Shown: piece by piece, positions 224 to 52,745 of the stretch
Position numbering within the stretch: position 1 is the first letter of the stretch
How the letters are laid out: every line of letters starts with the position of its first letter
Assembly: GCA_951799405.1 (NCBI GenBank)
Contig: OX637362.1
Location: 9,130,703-9,194,702 of the forward strand
Direction of reading: 5' to 3'
DNA: 64,000 nucleotides
DNA from: Agapetus fuscipes
Taxonomy: Eukaryota; Arthropoda; Insecta; Trichoptera; Glossosomatidae
Translations under genes and position numbers: made by a program
The notes under the pieces: generated by a model
Seen by the model: only the letters and a program-made list of their open reading frames with translations
What the model was told of the DNA's origin: nothing
The model's database searches: none

Positions 224-783
224 ATGAGTACTTTGCCATTTTGGTTGATTACGAGGGAAATTCCTCCGACAGTTCCGACGATGCATCTCTCCTAACGGAT
301 CTGTTTCAAACCGGCACCAAGAAAACCACAAAAATATTCACCAACGAACTTGTAAACTTCAACACAAGCAAATCTCTACTTTTAAATCAAGAAAATACAC
401 AAATTGATATGTTCAATTGTGATTCTTCTCCTGTCGATGAAATTCTGGATAGTTCTAATGTTTTACAACATTCAAATGTTTCTGTAATTGATGATGGTGC
501 TAACTCAAATATTGGAAAAGATTCTCCACGGTTTTCCGAGGGTCTACAGTACATCCAAAGTATCAGAGGAAATCCACAGCTTGTTTACGAGGGCCAGACT
601 TATAATTTTGAAAAGATGACGAGTATGAAGAAGATTTGGCAGTGCACGCAAAGTCAGAGGTTTAAATGTCGCGCTAGATTAGCGACAATTGGGTCTCAGG
701 TCATTGTGACAGCTGAAATGCATTCGCATCCTAAAATGATTGGTAGAATTAGTTCTAAGAATGTTTCACCACTCATTGAGTAA
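224..783 (+). CDS. Alternative terminal exon, FLYWCH finger with long acidic/Ser-rich leader (mod(mdg4)-like)
   Basis: Terminal exon of about 185 residues behind the acceptor ending at 223. The two leading bases AT complete a split codon (phase 1). The first 110 or so residues are Ser/Asp/Asn-rich and low in complexity, unlike the other exons, which go almost straight into the finger. The FLYWCH domain lies near the C-terminus: Y-N-F, then W-Q-C, a second Cys in F-K-C-R-A-R, and the canonical H-S-H pair, followed by about 16 more residues. An AATAAA sits at 890-895. Inferred role: one interchangeable DNA- or protein-binding C-terminus of a BTB protein. No start codon is required, because translation would come from upstream common exons outside the window. 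Confidence 0.8.
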
Positions 784-2395: not shown

Positions 2396-2631
2396 TTGTT
2401 CGGCAGTACATATCCTTCAAAACAAACACTCGTGGAAGACCCCAACTTGTGTATGACAATCAGTATTACAACAGAGAAGAGATCAGCGCCGGTCGTCAGT
2501 ACTGGAGATGCAACAAGAGGAAGAAATTCCACTGCAATGCTAGAATATGCCAGATAGGCGACGCCTTTAATATTGTGCAACCAGAACACACACACGGCCT
2601 ACTGCCTGATGACTTTTTAAACCTTCAATAA
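2396..2631 (+). CDS. Alternative terminal exon, FLYWCH finger
   Basis: 77-residue terminal exon after a TAG acceptor (2393-2395). The leading TT completes a split codon. The finger shows a G-R-P-x-L-V-Y entry, Y-W-R-C, a second Cys in F-H-C-N-A-R, and the canonical H-T-H pair. The TAA stop (2629-2631) lies inside an AATAAA hexamer (2627-2632), so coding end and poly(A) signal coincide. The exon resembles the first one more than the central cluster in its spacing and its H-x-H ligands. It is flanked upstream by SINE copies and downstream by a transposon-terminus-like sequence that precedes the psq/DDE exon. Confidence 0.82.
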
Positions 2632-2976: not shown

Positions 2977-4226
2977 AGGAGTTTTACGAATGGAGAAATG
3001 AAAAGCGGAAACCAAGTAGAAGACCACACAACGAAAAGAACATGAGGGAAGCTGTGGATCTAGTAAATCAAGGAATGAGCTTAAGGAAGGCAGCGTACCA
3101 GAAAAATGTGAACTACGGAACCCTGTCTCGATATGTGAAAAAAAGCAATAACAGTGACGATCGTACATGTCGCATGTTACCAAACTATGGCAAGAAAGTG
3201 TTCTCAGTAGAGCATGAAAAGGACCTGAAAGAATATATAATGACCTACTCCAAGATGTGCTATGGCATAGGCCCCATGCAAGTCAGACGTTTAGCTTATG
3301 AAATGGCTTTGCATCACAGCCTAAAAGTTCCTCCAAGCTGGCACAAACATGGCAAAGCTGGCCTTGATTGGCTATTCTGTTTTAAGGGACGTCATTCAGA
3401 TTTGACTCTAAATAAGCCGGTAGCTCGCAGTTCTTCAAATGAACACGATGCCAAGATTTTTTTTGAAAATCTGGAAGATGTTATGAAACATCCTGCTTTT
3501 GGCGATGGCACAAGGGTGTTTTGTTTAGAAGAAATGAGCTTTACATTAGCGGAAAAGCCAGAAAATTTATTAGCGCCGAAAGAAAGTAAACTATTAAAAA
3601 AAATCACAAGTAAAGAACAGGTAACCACATGTTGTATAGCTTCTGCTGCTGGGTCAGCCTTGCCACCAATTATGATTTTCCCTGTGAAAAAATTTAAAAC
3701 CAGTATGTTAGATGGCGCTCCTCCAGGCACCTTGGGTCTTGCTCAACCAACGGGCCAGATGACTAAAGAGATGTTTATTGCAGTAATGAAGCATTTTGTG
3801 GCATTGACTTCATCCACCAAAGAAAACCCTTCTCTCATTATAATGGACAATCATGAGTGCCATTTGAAACCAGCTGCGCTCAGTATGGCAAAAGATAACG
3901 GAGTCTCGCTTCTTACTGTCCCTCCGCACTCGAGTCACAAACTCCAAGCTCTCCATGTATCTGTTTTTGGTCTGTTTCAAAGCTATTACGATAGTGCAGT
4001 AGACTCGTGGATGTGCCACAACCCAGAACAGAGCTTGACTATTTACCATGTAGCTGAGATCATCGGAGTGGCATTTGACAAGGCCATGACACAGACTAAT
4101 ATTACATCTGGATTCAAACAAACTCATGTTTTCCCTATCAAACGAGAAGACTTCACAGATGATAATTTTTCCCAAAGTGAGGATTCTTCTCCATTATCTA
4201 ATTTACAAAGATACGTTAATAGTTAA
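2977..4226 (+). CDS. Alternative terminal exon: psq-type HTH plus inactivated DDE transposase domain
   Basis: Uninterrupted 415-codon exon behind a TAG acceptor (2974-2976), phase 1 (leading AG). Order: basic linker; psq-like HTH at about residues 15-60 (N-E-K-N-M-R-E-A-V, S-L-R-K-A-A, Y-G-T-L-S-R-Y); a second DNA-binding/helical region including D-W-L-F-C-F; and a pogo/Tigger-type DDE_1 domain from about residue 165. Catalytic positions look damaged: the first motif, usually D-E-T, reads C-L-E-E-M-S; the second Asp is kept in I-M-D-N-H; the third, usually P-L-D-V, reads A-L-H-V. An intact frame with lost catalytic acids suggests a domesticated binding protein rather than an active transposase. 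AATAAA lies at 4253-4258. The alternative is a recently dead transposon that happens to lack stops; 415 clean codons make this less likely. Confidence 0.75.
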
Positions 4227-6208: not shown

Positions 6209-6423
6209 CAGGCGTGTGCATAGGGTATACACAAATACATTTCAGAATAAATATTTTCTCCCAGACCTTTAAAATAACTCATTTGAAATTGAAGTGCTAA
6301 CAATGGCTCCAATCGGACTTAAATTTTGAATTTTAAATCTCAATATCAAGGTTAAATGGCATTTTTAACATATATTGCCTACCTATTAGGGATTATGTGC
6401 CCTGTATGGGATGCACGCCTCTG
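6209..6423. mobile_element. MITE, deletion derivative of the 50-kb transposon
   Basis: 215-bp element with inverted ends CAGGCGTGTGCATAGGG (left) and ATGCACGCCTCTG (right). It is flanked by an 8-bp duplication with one mismatch (TTGGAATC 6201-6208, TTGAAATC 6424-6431). Its right end, reverse-complemented, matches the left end of the transposon at 50146 over about 80 bp. Confidence 0.75.
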
Positions 6424-7102
6424 TTGAAATCTGATGCTAAGGCCGGTTGCGTTGTTCTAACCAAACCGTCAATTTGTATTTTCCGTCTGGACTATACCAT
6501 TTAACCAACAGTCAGTATATACTTACAGTGCTCTCCTGACAAACTGACAGGACTAGCGCAGTTGTTAATGGAATGGATGCATTCACTAATAGTTTAAATA
6601 ACGGGTCCACTGACAGATGCAGCAGCGAATGTGTTTATTTACTTCTTTAGGGCATAAGTCGACCAATTGCACACATGCACACGCACTCTCCTGACGGTCA
6701 ATATGTGCATAGCAATATAAGTGTGCGTACATTCAGTTTAGCACTATAAGAACCTTTTCATGTTGAATGAATTCCGTTCACTGTCTATGATTTTTTTTGT
6801 ATCCGGTTTTGAATCAGAAATAGTGTATGGAGATGAATGAAAGATTTTATATGGTTTGTCCGGCGATCCCATCCGAAATAATAGACAAACCAACAGAATT
6901 CATGCTTTGTGAGAAGGACGTTACATTTTATGAATTTTCGTATAAATGTCAAGTGCGATTGACGCAGGTACCTACTCACTGATGGTTAGTGAAGCAATTT
7001 AACCGGCCTAAGGAATGTTGAATGCGCGTTCGTCTTAATTTCTAATGTAGTTTGTATTTAAAAAGGTTTTGTTGTTCAATGTATGTAACATATCTTATTT
7101 CA

Positions 7103-8629: not shown

Positions 8630-8765
8630 ATAATCTAAATTGCAAAGATAAATTAACATTTAAAGCTCATATCAAAAGCATGTCCACAAACAGACACCTG
8701 TAGTTTGCGCTTACAAATGCTGAATGTGTACTTACAAATTAAAATCCAAACCTCATGATTCATAC
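8630..8765 (-). mobile_element. RTE-type LINE 3'-tail fragment
   Basis: Minus-strand copy of the recurring tail (TAATCTAAATTGCAAAGATA..., ...CTTACAAAT..). It abuts the acceptor region of the homeodomain exon. Confidence 0.55.
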
Positions 8766-8780
8766 TTAAATTCCTTGCAG

Positions 8781-9004
8781 GTAACCACAACAATAGACAA
8801 GACATCCAAAGCCTTCACTATCCGTACTCAAAGAGGGATCGGAGGAATTTCACAGCAGAAGAAATTGCCATATTGGAGACGGAGTTCCAGCGGGACAATT
8901 ATCTGAATGCCCAGCGTAGGCTGATGATGGCCTCTGAACTGAACCTCTCTGAGAGGAGTATAATGGTTTGGTTTCAAAATCGACGACGGAAAAAGAAGAC
9001 GTAG
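8781..9004 (+). CDS. Alternative terminal exon encoding a complete homeodomain
   Basis: 73-residue terminal exon after CAG (8778-8780). The leading GT makes it phase 1, like the FLYWCH exons. After about 14 residues, a full-length homeodomain runs to the stop: basic N-terminal arm (K-R-D-R-R-N-F), helix 1 (A-E-E-I-A-I-L-E-T-E-F), helix 2 (A-Q-R-R-L-M-M-A-S-E-L), and recognition helix S-I-M-V-W-F-Q-N-R-R-R-K-K-K with Trp48, Phe49, Gln50, Asn51 and Arg53 in place. The stop follows three residues after the basic tail. A variant ATTAAA is at 9019-9024. Helix 3 is intact, so DNA binding is plausible. I cannot assign it to a named Hox or paired class. The alternatives are a retroposed homeobox fragment or the last exon of an unrelated gene, but the array position, strand and phase favour use as a C-terminus of the same locus. 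Confidence 0.75.
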
Positions 9005-10000
9005 AATGCTTAAGATTTATTAAATCATTGTACTGTGTTATTTTATAGATATTTATTATTTTCGACATAGTTATGTACCCCTAGTTTATTTCCCACCATT
9101 GCTTAAATAGATAAAATGTGTGAAAACTTAATCACTCACTAGGGGTGCTGTTGTGTCTTACATACACTTTAATTTACATACCATACATTTTACTACTAAA
9201 GAATGGGGGGGAAGTTGCCCAGTGTTCTATACTAGGGTAATTGTATATTTACTTTATGTACATATTTTTTTATATTATTGCATAATGAATTGATGCAATG
9301 ACCGAAAAATGGTGGATGTTGGAATGCAACTAAACTACACATATGGTGCAACTTCTGCACCATTTTCCCAAAGGGATTGCTCGTGGTGAGTGATCCTATT
9401 TATTTTTACAGGTAAGGAAGCTGGCCTCACACCGACCACTTCATTTGTAGTGGTGGTTTCCGACTAATACTCATTTATTGTGAAGGCTGTTTCATCCTTG
9501 CAGGTGGCAAATAGTGATTTTCATTTTTAAGCTTGATATAAAAATGATACAGAAATGATTTCCCGTTTCTTTGACCATTTCAAACCCAAAGTAAATACCA
9601 GCGAGGTGTACTCTCAGCCTTCACAAGAAATGAGAACCAGCCCCCCTGGGAGCTGGGAAACCCCCACTTCACCTGAAAATGGTTGGTGTGAGGCCAGCCT
9701 CATTACCCGTAAAAATAAATAGGATCCGAATCGCCACATGGGACCCCTTCGGGGATAACGCAGGCAAGAAGTTAAACAATATGTGTGGCTTAGTTGCGTT
9801 ATATAGGTTTTTTAAATATATTATTCATTTTTCTTGCAACTTTCATTATAGATAAAAGATCTGAATTTAGGTAGCATAATACCTGTGATTATTTTAACTC
9901 TGCATTGTATGAGCTATACCAAGACATGGATTTGGTCCAGTCAATATAAGTCAGACTACTTTGACTGGGTCATATTCAGCGAAGGATCGTCTTTTTTATA
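9005..10000. repeat. Long imperfect inverted repeat about 9380-9725 in otherwise gene-free DNA
   Basis: About 9384-9520 and 9590-9725 are related in opposite orientation (CCTATTTATTTTTACAG...GGCCTCACACC versus its complement). The repeat shares wording with the SINE at 42.5-42.8 kb (TTTACAGGTAAG, CTCATTTATTGTGAAGGCTG), so it is probably two SINEs head to head. No coding exon seen. Confidence 0.55.
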
Positions 10001-12071: not shown

Positions 12072-12307
12072 GAGGCTCTCTGAAGTTCGTCCAGTCCCGT
12101 CGTTCTAAAGGCATGGTCTCTTATCTTGGGTTCACCTACACATACAAGCAGGAAAACTCCAGCAAAGTTCACTGGACGTGCTCCAAGGCTAGATCCAGAC
12201 ACTGCAAGGCGCGCATACACACTGTGGACAATGTAGTAGTGTTCGCGTACGGTGAACACATGTGCCAACACAGCAACGCCAACGTGAATGCATCTCAACG
12301 CATCTAA
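12072..12307 (+). CDS. Alternative terminal exon, FLYWCH finger (C2HC type)
   Basis: 77 residues after CAG (12069-12071), leading GA, phase 1. Finger: S-Y-L-G-F-T-Y-T-Y, then H-W-T-C, C-K-A-R-I-H-T-V-D-N, ending H-M-C instead of H-x-H, plus 14 residues rich in Asn and Ser. It is the most upstream member of the central H-x-C group. The stop is followed at once by a LINE 3' fragment, so the exon's own 3' UTR and poly(A) site were displaced or replaced by that element. Confidence 0.85.
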
Positions 12308-15889: not shown

Positions 15890-16098
15890 GGCTATTATCG
15901 TCTGTAGAATTCATCAAGAAGAGGCTGGACTCGGAGGGAATGCTTCTGTACAACGGGTTCACCTACTCCTTCAAGAGAAGAGTGGGCTTCAAGAAGCACT
16001 GGACCTGCACCAAGGCCGCTTCCAAAGGCTGCAAAGCCAGGATACACACTATAGACGAGGAAATTGTACTTCTGTATGATGCCCACATCTGTCGATAG
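15890..16098 (+). CDS. Alternative terminal exon, FLYWCH finger (C2HC type)
   Basis: 68 residues after CAG (15887-15889), leading GG, phase 1. Order: V-E-F-I-K-K-R, then G-M-L-L-Y-N-G-F-T-Y-S-F-K-R, K-K-H-W-T-C, C-K-A-R-I-H-T-I-D, and H-I-C-R-stop. The stop falls two codons after the last zinc ligand. The exon has no methionine early enough to give a long ATG ORF, so start-codon-based gene finding would miss it. Closest in style to the exons at 19.1 and 24.1 kb (K-H-W-x-C, S-x-x-C-x-A-R). No nearby AATAAA was noticed; a hairpin follows 30 bp later. Confidence 0.86.
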
Positions 16099-19069: not shown

Positions 19070-19335
19070 GATTTCCTCCGCCAAGGTTTGTGAAGTCTGG
19101 CTCAAACTGTGAAGGTAAGTTACTCCACAATGGCTACACGTATTGCTTCAAGCAGAAGCCGGGGCTCAAGAGGCACTGGATCTGCAGCAAGAGTAGCTCC
19201 CGGAACTGCCGAGCGAGAGTGCACACCATCGGAGAGGAGATTGTATTCATGTCTGATAACCACATCTGTAATTTGAGCGCCTCAAACTTTGTTCCTTTCA
19301 TTAAATTTGATTTGAAATATAAATCTGATTCATGA
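19070..19335 (+). CDS. Alternative terminal exon, FLYWCH finger (C2HC type)
   Basis: 87 residues after TAG (19067-19069), leading GA, phase 1. G-K-L-L-H-N-G-Y-T-Y-C-F-K-Q, L-K-R-H-W-I-C-S-K, N-C-R-A-R-V-H-T-I, N-H-I-C-N, then a 20-residue hydrophobic/Lys tail to TGA. An in-frame ATG lies upstream at 19045, inside the presumed intron, so ATG-based prediction would extend it too far. A LINE begins within 30 bp downstream. Confidence 0.86.
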
Positions 19336-33086: not shown

Positions 33087-33301
33087 GTCGCTCAAAGCTA
33101 TGGATTGAGGATCAACCAAAGTTCGCTGCATCAGCTTCTAACCGGCCAGCTTGCAAGCTGTGTCTCAGAACTAGGAAAAAGCAAAGAAGAACCCGCTTCC
33201 ACTGCACGCTTTGCAGAAATCCTGTATGCCTTCAGCACTCTTACACAAATACTAAATATATTTGCACAGATTGCCGCGTCGGTTGTTCAGTGGTCGTTTG
33301 A
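33087..33301 (+). CDS. Alternative terminal exon: piggyBac-like Cys-rich zinc domain
   Basis: 70 residues after CAG (33084-33086), leading GT, phase 1. After 24 residues comes a cysteine-rich unit: C-K-L-C, a basic stretch R-T-R-K-K-Q-R-R-T-R, F-H-C-x-x-C, P-V-C-L-Q-H-S, then Y-I-C-T-D-C. The spacing and the R-x-R-F-H-C-x-x-C-x-x-P-x-C core resemble the C-terminal Cys-rich domain of piggyBac transposases, which binds transposon-end DNA. No catalytic part is present. AATAAA at 33305-33310. Splice phase, strand, length and poly(A) layout match its FLYWCH neighbours at 31.9 and 33.7 kb. The alternative is another small treble-clef or RING-like domain; the family call is moderate, the exon call stronger. 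Confidence 0.7.
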
Positions 33302-50511: not shown

Positions 50512-52745
50512 AGTATAAACAACCAAGAAATTTTGAAATGGAGGAGAAGAAAAAGAAAGGAAAATGGGACCAACAAGGTTTGCAAACTGCTTTGAATAAA
50601 GTTTTGTCCAAAGACATGAGTCTAAGAGAAGCATCATTACGTTATGGCATCCCAAAGAGCACCATCTACGACAAAATATCTGCTTTGAAACGCGGAGAAG
50701 AAGTGGAGTTGGTACCAAAAATCGGCAGATTTAAAAATACCTTCTCACCAGAGTACGAACAAGTTCTAGTCGACCATATAAAAGGTTTGTCGAACAGATG
50801 TCTTCCGCTGATGAAAAAAGATTTTTTGAAGATAGCTTTCGACCTAGCTGAAGCTATGAAGATTCCTCATCGCTTCAATGAAAAGAAACGACCGCTGGTA
50901 AGCATTTCTATTATGACTTTATGCGAAGACATCCGGACATTTCATAAAGAGCTCCAGAATCGACAAGCATGATGCAAGCCGTAGGTTTAAGCAGACCTTA
51001 AGTTGACATATTTTATGACAGTTTGGAAAACCTAACGACACAGCATTGACTTATACCTGCCAATATTTATAACTGTGACAAAATGGGTGTCGAGTGCGTC
51101 CACAAGCAACAAAAAGTTCTTGCTCCGAAGGTTGTTCACCAAGTAGGAAAGCTGACTTCCGCTGAGAGAAGTAAAAATATCACTTTTATGTTTTGTATGA
51201 GTGCTGACGGTCACTTCACACCTCCATTTTTCATTTTTCCTAGACAAAGGATGAACGACAGCCTCATGATCAATGCTCCAGCCCAAAGTGTTAGTGTGGC
51301 TCAGTTAAAAGGATGGATGAACGGTGTTTTTTCTCCAATGGTTGCAGCTATTTGCGAAACACTCACATCCATCAAAAGAAACTCCTGTGCTGCTTCTATT
51401 GGATGGCCATTGCAGTCGCAAGACACTGGCTGTTATAAATTTCTGTCGAAAAATAGCACCCACTTAAAAAGCACCCCACTCCACATCACACACAAGCTCC
51501 AACCTCTGAATAGAACGTCCATGAAGCCTTTCAAAGATGCCTATAGTGAAAAATGTGACCTATGGATGAGAGAAAATCCTGAATCCGGCATAACGGACTA
51601 CGATATAGCCGGTCTAGACAATGATGCATTTGTTTTTATGCATTTATTTTACTAAAGTAGCTAGGATGGGTATTGCGGGGTCTGGCTTTAAATGCATGGT
51701 ATATATCCATTTGGCAGGCATTAGTTTAGTCTATAATCTATAATCTAAGTTGCAAGGATATATTCATTCAAAGCTCTCAGATGTATGCCCACAAACAAAC
51801 ACGTGTAGTTCGCGCTTACAAATGCTGATTGTGTACTTACAAATAAAATCCAAACCTAAAATGAACATAAGCCCTGCAACTCTTGCCGACATTCCCTGAA
51901 ACAGGGGTGACATTGGCAAAGTGAACCATTTTTTACAGTATGGATGGTCAGCCTCATTCCAACCTATAAGTCAAGGAATACGAGTAATAAATAACATTTA
52001 AGTATAAAAAAAAAAAAACAACAAAATCTTAAAAATAAATCTATACAAAAAAAAGTCAAAAAATTCTTATGGAAAAAATGTAGCAAATTAATAAACCAAC
52101 ATTACAATTCAGCATTGCAGATTAGTAGTGATATTGATTAATTGGCTGCAGATATGACCAATATACCAGTAGAAGAATCAGGGACTTCGTTAAATACGCC
52201 AAACTCTTGTAAAAAAAATGGCTGCTATTCCACTGATTTAGCCTTGGATGGTAGCTCATCTATACCTCAAAATGAACAATTCACAAACTTTTTAATGGAA
52301 AGTTCACCACAATCTACAGGAAACAGTTCTCAACATTCAACTAGCTTTTCTCTATATTATGTTGTTCGAATTGTCGCCGTTGCCAAATGCTGCCAGAAAA
52401 AGATCAGAGGCACGTAAAAGAAAAACTAAACGTTGTCAAATTGTAACTCCATTACCCTACAAACTCACAATTGAAGAAACTTTAAATGAAAATGAAAAGC
52501 AAATACCAAAACCAAAGTACAATGTCTTCTAAGAAGGGAAGGGAAAATCGACCAAAGGCTTACAGGGTAAAGGAAAAAGAATTGAGGAAGGAGACAAAGC
52601 AAAGAAAAAATATATATTAAAACCTAACACTAGTTGTGTAATTTGCATGAGCTCAGAGGAGCACGAAGAGGAGTGGATAAAATGTCCCAGCTGGGTGGAG
52701 TGTGCTCATGAAGCATGTGTGGGCATTCCTGAATGTGGAGATGAC
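50512..52745 (+). pseudogene. psq-HTH / DDE transposase pseudogene with C-terminal PHD-like motif
   Basis: First exon-like block 50512-50972 follows TAG (50509-50511) and reads in phase 1: K-G-K-W-D, S-L-R-E-A-S-L-R-Y-G-I-P-K-S-T-I-Y-D, then the frame is lost. DDE remains in 51060-51655: N-C-D-K-M-G-V (usual D-E-T changed), H-K-L-Q-P-L-N (third Asp changed to Asn), and the second acidic region is missing. After the inserted RTE tail, 52142-52745 encodes Ser-rich sequence, a K-R-K-T-K-R block and C-V-I-C, W-I-K-C, C-A-H-E-A-C, a PHD-like C-terminus seen in some insect pogo-type transposases. Not functional as it stands. Confidence 0.65.
51718..52132 (-). mobile_element. RTE-type LINE 3' tail nested in the transposase gene
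   Basis: Full-length tail on the minus strand, including the UTR segment up to the end-of-ORF region (complement of CTGCAATGCTGAATTGTAATG). Confidence 0.75.

Follow-up and report, generated by a model that had tools for sequence, protein, structure and literature searches.

In mod(mdg4) of Drosophila and Lepidoptera, BTB common exons are combined with many FLYWCH acceptor exons that lie on both strands and share a phase-compatible junction. The accessible part of one source gives 31 acceptor combinations for the fly, 40 for the monarch and 41 for the diamondback moth, places acceptors on both strands of mod(mdg4) in fly, silkmoth and monarch, assigns opposite-strand acceptors to 33 of the 40 monarch isoforms (with RT-PCR confirmation of 14 of the 18 tested), and reports FLYWCH in 26 of 31 fly and 37 of 40 monarch isoforms, naming no homeodomain (PMC4667647). 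A similar design is seen in Drosophila lola, with BTB common exons and alternative, partly trans-spliced DNA-binding ends; 17 of its 20 isoforms carry C2H2 zinc fingers there, again with no homeodomain named in the available part of the account (PMC11426971); according to the same part, Tramtrack-type BTB domains multimerise with themselves and with one another. A homeobox survey of 123 Lepidoptera lists the families present, and its text mentions neither mdg4 nor BTB (PMC9977156).

The Agapetus fuscipes locus analysed here shares with mod(mdg4) the BTB common exons, the FLYWCH acceptors on both strands and the compatible phases, but differs from the known examples in that its acceptor ORFs include a homeodomain as well as several other DNA-binding domains; the homeodomain also sets it apart from lola, which it otherwise resembles in plan. 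A complete homeodomain that falls amid ANTP-type sequences is a likeness to ANTP-class homeobox genes, including the zen-derived Shx genes of Lepidoptera, although this one shares no more than 49% identity with any other in the genome, and neither a start codon nor a separate gene was seen for it. Transposase-type DNA-binding domains (CENP-B, Psq) behind a host domain recall host-transposase fusion transcription factors, with the difference that the join here would be made by trans-splicing at one locus and that the homeodomain is not of transposase type. We consider that the exon at positions 8781-9004 of the window (the whole 64,000-nucleotide stretch analysed, C30:9130703-9194702 of the 618 Mb genome) is probably a 3' acceptor exon of mod(mdg4), yielding a trans-spliced BTB-homeodomain isoform. 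Its features are as follows.

8781..9004, + strand: homeodomain-coding terminal exon including the stop codon, with a phase-1 acceptor
8761..8780, + strand: 3' splice site with cag at its end, acceptor score 8.2 bits
8831..9001, + strand: homeodomain, residues 2-58 by the usual numbering
9002..9004, + strand: stop codon TAG
9019..9024, + strand: ATTAAA, candidate poly(A) signal seen in the sequence

The cag ends at 8780, the exon starts at 8781 and the frame is open from 8783 to the stop codon; the acceptor is in phase 1, with two bases required for completion of the first codon. The exon matches the Pfam Homeodomain model (PF00046) at an E-value of 1.8e-19 and 69.8 bits (cut-off 22.9), the alignment covering model positions 1-56 of 57. 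In what we take to be the usual homeodomain numbering, F8, L16, F20, L26, L40, V47, W48, F49, Q50, N51 and R53 are all present and the stop follows directly after residue 58. Sequence search against solved structures with the exon protein retrieved 122 distinct sequences at E-values of 0.001 or below, the top two being engrailed proteins. A single-sequence structure model (mean pLDDT 76.3) has helices at residues 25-35, 40-51 and 57-72, and the best 21 matches in a structure search seeded with it are all homeodomains, with a lowest E-value of 0.24 and none reaching 0.001. A chance match to the homeodomain is excluded, and the original prediction, which had placed at these coordinates a complete homeodomain of three helices with W48-F49-Q50-N51 and a stop just past the domain, in a phase-1 exon, was accurate in each of these points.

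The frame of the exon has no in-frame ATG before helix 2, so that translation of the homeodomain requires an upstream exon. Among four candidate acceptors scored, the phase-1 site at 8781 is the best (8.2 versus -1.2, -4.5 and -9.1 bits), and its score falls in the range of the FLYWCH exons that were not used for training. Two properties of this site count against the BTB-homeodomain reading, namely that it scores below the 16 training acceptors (10.3-17.7 bits) and that the sequence across it is also donor-like (CAG/GTAAC). The codon-usage score of the exon (0.16 per codon, within the FLYWCH range of -0.18 to 0.99) gives weak support because high-scoring non-FLYWCH ORFs are nearly equal in number across phases and strands.

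A genome search yielded 40 other matches to the homeodomain of the exon, all at 49% identity or less; the exon is thus single-copy, with no near paralogue pointing to a gene family. In a tree with 68 of the 94 other genomic homeodomain places (80 were fetched, 14 weak ones being left out, and 12 fetched rows were dropped because they were short or, in two cases, unaligned from their start), the exon groups with ANTP-type sequences at 94/84 on a long branch of 1.61 changes per site and joins no single family within them. The phylogeny by which the source of the exon was to be traced therefore gives an ANTP-type placement but not the source family. A protein search for relatives in a collection of 5.8 billion returned one candidate and none at an E-value of 0.001. 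Against its ten nearest homeodomains the exon has dN values of 0.45-0.61 with saturated dS, which precludes a dN/dS ratio.

These figures bear on whether the exon could be a relic, that is, a homeodomain copied or moved into the array and present in no stable mRNA. The long branch would fit such an origin, as would the transposon-rich surroundings and the profile score, which at 67.9 is the lowest of 28 full-length homeodomains (72.1-96.0 for the 27 from which the profile was built) and in this respect also counts against the BTB-homeodomain reading. Yet the frame, the core residues and the acceptor are intact at about 50% divergence, a combination that neutral simulation almost never allows. 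When ten Hox-type homeodomains were drifted to 50% identity in 200 runs each, by substitutions only and without indels, which makes the simulation lenient to a relic, 152 of the 2000 outcomes were free of stops and 1 of those 152 kept the six core residues; the best profile score was 53.3, none reaching that of the exon. Being better preserved than neutral drift from Hox-type sequences predicts, the exon has spent most of its history under homeodomain constraint, perhaps in another gene. We regard a relic as distinctly improbable, while a recent loss of function, judged from this one genome, is conceivable.

Other homeodomains of the genome deserve mention in their own right. The Hox-type homeodomains of C24:4540493-15947532 fall into two groups about 8.8 Mb apart, so that the Hox cluster may be split, with what we take to be rough-like and labial-like homeodomains between the groups. 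A single open frame of 1076 residues at C12:2283825-2286581 contains four homeodomains and is presumably a Zfhx-type gene.

The surroundings of the exon were surveyed over the window and 100 kb on either side (264 kb), with a FLYWCH profile based on 18 exons of the window, including one in a wrong-frame translation. The profile matched 72 ORFs representing 71 places (two are frames of one place) across C30:9030751-9293414, first 27 on the minus strand (9.031 to 9.118 Mb) and then 44 on the plus strand (9.131 to 9.293 Mb); the array touches both margins of the surveyed stretch and may be larger. The best acceptor is in phase 1 in 64 of the 71 places, one off-frame duplicate row being set aside, and in 48 of 55 when the 16 places that trained the acceptor score are removed. 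The figure of 71 acceptor places exceeds the acceptor combinations given in the accessible part of PMC4667647, which are 31 in the fly, 40 in the monarch and 41 in the diamondback moth. Same-strand FLYWCH exons lie on both sides of the homeodomain exon, and the array in this part of the window includes the following.

224..783, + strand: FLYWCH acceptor exon
2396..2631, + strand: FLYWCH acceptor exon
12072..12307, + strand: FLYWCH acceptor exon
15890..16098, + strand: FLYWCH acceptor exon
19070..19335, + strand: FLYWCH acceptor exon

The description of the homeodomain as a terminal exon inside a FLYWCH array thus agrees with the anatomy, but it is not the lone non-FLYWCH DNA-binding exon there. 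Other ORFs of this kind in the window are listed here.

2977..4226, + strand: phase-1 ORF with Psq helix-turn-helix and DDE_1 domains, intact, 415 residues
5502..6019, + strand: phase-1 ORF with CENP-B_N and HTH_Tnp_Tc5 domains, without a DDE domain
33087..33301, + strand: phase-1 Cys-rich ORF with no Pfam match
50512..50972, + strand: phase-1 ORF with a Psq helix-turn-helix, an in-frame ATG preceding the domain and a DDE-like ORF behind it

For all five non-FLYWCH DNA-binding or Cys-rich ORFs (2919, 5480, 8759, 33059 and 50493, the homeodomain exon included), which had been picked before their phase was looked at, the best acceptor is in phase 1; among the strong acceptors listed for other phases, read by eye and consisting partly of other FLYWCH frames, no such domain occurs. 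The Psq-DDE ORF has no copy above 49% identity among the 101 scored of 456 candidates, and the next genomic match to the CENP-B/Tc5 ORF, which is likely a captured transposase end, is at 40%. The Cys-rich ORF resembles what we take to be the end of piggyBac transposases, and the Psq ORF at 50512 may be a transposon remnant. A scan for phase-1 ORFs added a single, short Psq helix-turn-helix exon without a start codon (C30:9207874-9208071, L020:3172-3369), which has no other genomic match at an E-value of 0.001 and, if joined to BTB, would yield a Pipsqueak-like BTB-Psq protein, and a minus-strand MADF pair; as both were found through their phase, they provide no test of phase agreement. Given the lack of close copies among scored matches, the CENP-B/Tc5, Psq-DDE and Psq ORFs are not recent transposon copies. 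In the minus half of the array, a MADF domain extends over two minus-strand ORFs (L015:7768-8049 and 6412-6669), and a BESS motif occurs in one ORF scanned with that half; the MADF-BESS unit could be either an embedded gene or a further mod(mdg4) end.

Pfam was run over the non-FLYWCH ORFs of both strands with a length of 95 residues or more, covering 201 of 211, 10 at the borders of fetched pieces being left out. It detected reverse transcriptases, endonucleases, DDE transposases, FLYWCH, Psq and CENP-B/Tc5 domains, besides a single BESS motif and a single Baculo_FP domain, and no ordinary host-gene domain among these 201 other ORFs of the 264 kb, so that the array consists of mod(mdg4) exons and mobile elements, including captured or domesticated transposase parts. 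This result also weighs on a second explanation, in which the homeodomain exon would belong, as its terminal exon, to an independent and divergent homeobox gene that begins elsewhere on the plus strand, with its first exons inside or beside the array. Introns upstream of the homeodomain are common in homeobox genes, which favours such a gene; phase-1 agreement, taken alone, is a one-in-three chance event, and the MADF-BESS unit, with an in-frame ATG of its own, is a possible example of a gene embedded in the array. Apart from the absence of ordinary gene domains, the explanation is opposed by the distance to the closest genomic homeodomain (49% identity, no near paralogue) and by the plus strand of the 8.76 kb upstream of the exon in the window, where no ORF leads from an ATG to a phase-1 donor (strict G/GTRAG, at least 20 residues). 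An independent gene is accordingly unlikely, though it is the alternative to which we give most weight.

The BTB domain (PF00651) is split across two minus-strand exons, C30:9328692-9328832 and 9328466-9328600, about 188 kb from the homeodomain exon, on the opposite strand and past the FLYWCH array. The BTB common region comprises three exons of 211, 540 and 78 bases with an open frame throughout, the last of them at C30:9327987-9327910 on the minus strand. Phase-1 ends ahead of GT donors are visible in the second and the third, and the N-terminus of the region is of the typical form. A sequence search of the PDB with the BTB domain retrieved BTB proteins generally, the best being a ZBTB17/BCL6 fusion (7.9e-16) and the Tramtrack-type CG6765 reaching 1.9e-9. 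By its anatomy the locus has the plan of mod(mdg4), an assignment made mainly on the FLYWCH array, since the BTB sequence by itself does not tell Mod(mdg4) apart from other BTB proteins of the Tramtrack type. Joined in silico, the three common exons and the homeodomain exon are in frame and give one open BTB-homeodomain protein of 350 residues. The locus had been predicted to be mod(mdg4)-like, and the presence of the BTB donor, the agreement of phases and the open joined frame uphold this.

In this assembly the homeodomain exon lies antisense to the exons for BTB, which rules out cis-splicing and leaves trans-splicing as the sole route between them. The fusion had been attributed to alternative or trans-splicing; of these, ordinary alternative cis-splicing is excluded by the opposite strands. 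Cis-splicing could operate from the BTB transcript if strand or order were wrong in the assembly, and the strand switch of the array between 9.1177 and 9.1309 Mb of C30 does look like an inversion error. However, the whole locus lies in one chromosome-scale contig, and acceptors on both strands also occur in mod(mdg4) of fly, silkmoth and monarch, as the accessible part of PMC4667647 has it; an error of this kind is very hard to credit. Elsewhere in the genome, four equal-scoring BTB matches at tandem spacing (C21:13733802-13806909) reflect either recent duplication or an artefact of the assembly.

In the trans-spliced BTB-homeodomain reading that we prefer, a separate plus-strand transcript would bear the homeodomain exon, and trans-splicing would connect its 3' splice site with the 5' splice site of the final common exon in a BTB donor transcript coming from the minus strand 188 kb away. 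The predicted product of 350 residues would carry the BTB multimerisation domain in front and the homeodomain at its end in place of FLYWCH. From this arrangement we infer transcription, trans-splicing, DNA binding and function of the product: the BTB part would form multimers with itself and with other Tramtrack-type BTB domains, the homeodomain would pick the DNA, and the fusion would bring BTB partners to homeodomain-type sites. The trans-splicing motif CAGGTAAGT (U1-complementary), allowing at most 1 mismatch, is absent from the 5.2 kb 3' of the last common exon; this is listed against the BTB-homeodomain reading, but with a mean of 0.64 matches in shuffled sequence the absence is uninformative.

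We know of no pairing of BTB with a homeodomain from any source. In line with the original prediction, which was aware of no homeodomain isoform at this locus, the open-access literature, with subscription papers mostly outside the search, describes neither such an isoform of mod(mdg4) nor a BTB-homeodomain pairing. What we rate as the new element is a new class of DNA-binding end at a known trans-splicing locus. More tentatively, and with slightly less than even confidence, we suggest that mod(mdg4) might serve as a store of exchangeable DNA-binding ends, with 71 FLYWCH places and the homeodomain, CENP-B/Tc5, Psq, Psq-DDE and MADF-BESS units sharing one BTB-donor phase, in which trans-splicing would turn a captured domain into a BTB transcription factor without rearrangement beside the BTB exons. 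If spliced as proposed, the homeodomain exon would contribute to a BTB-homeodomain factor built from two separate transcripts. A trans-splicing locus would then gain new DNA-binding domains through insertion of a phase-compatible exon at any point of the array, which would represent a direct and testable path to new transcription factors.
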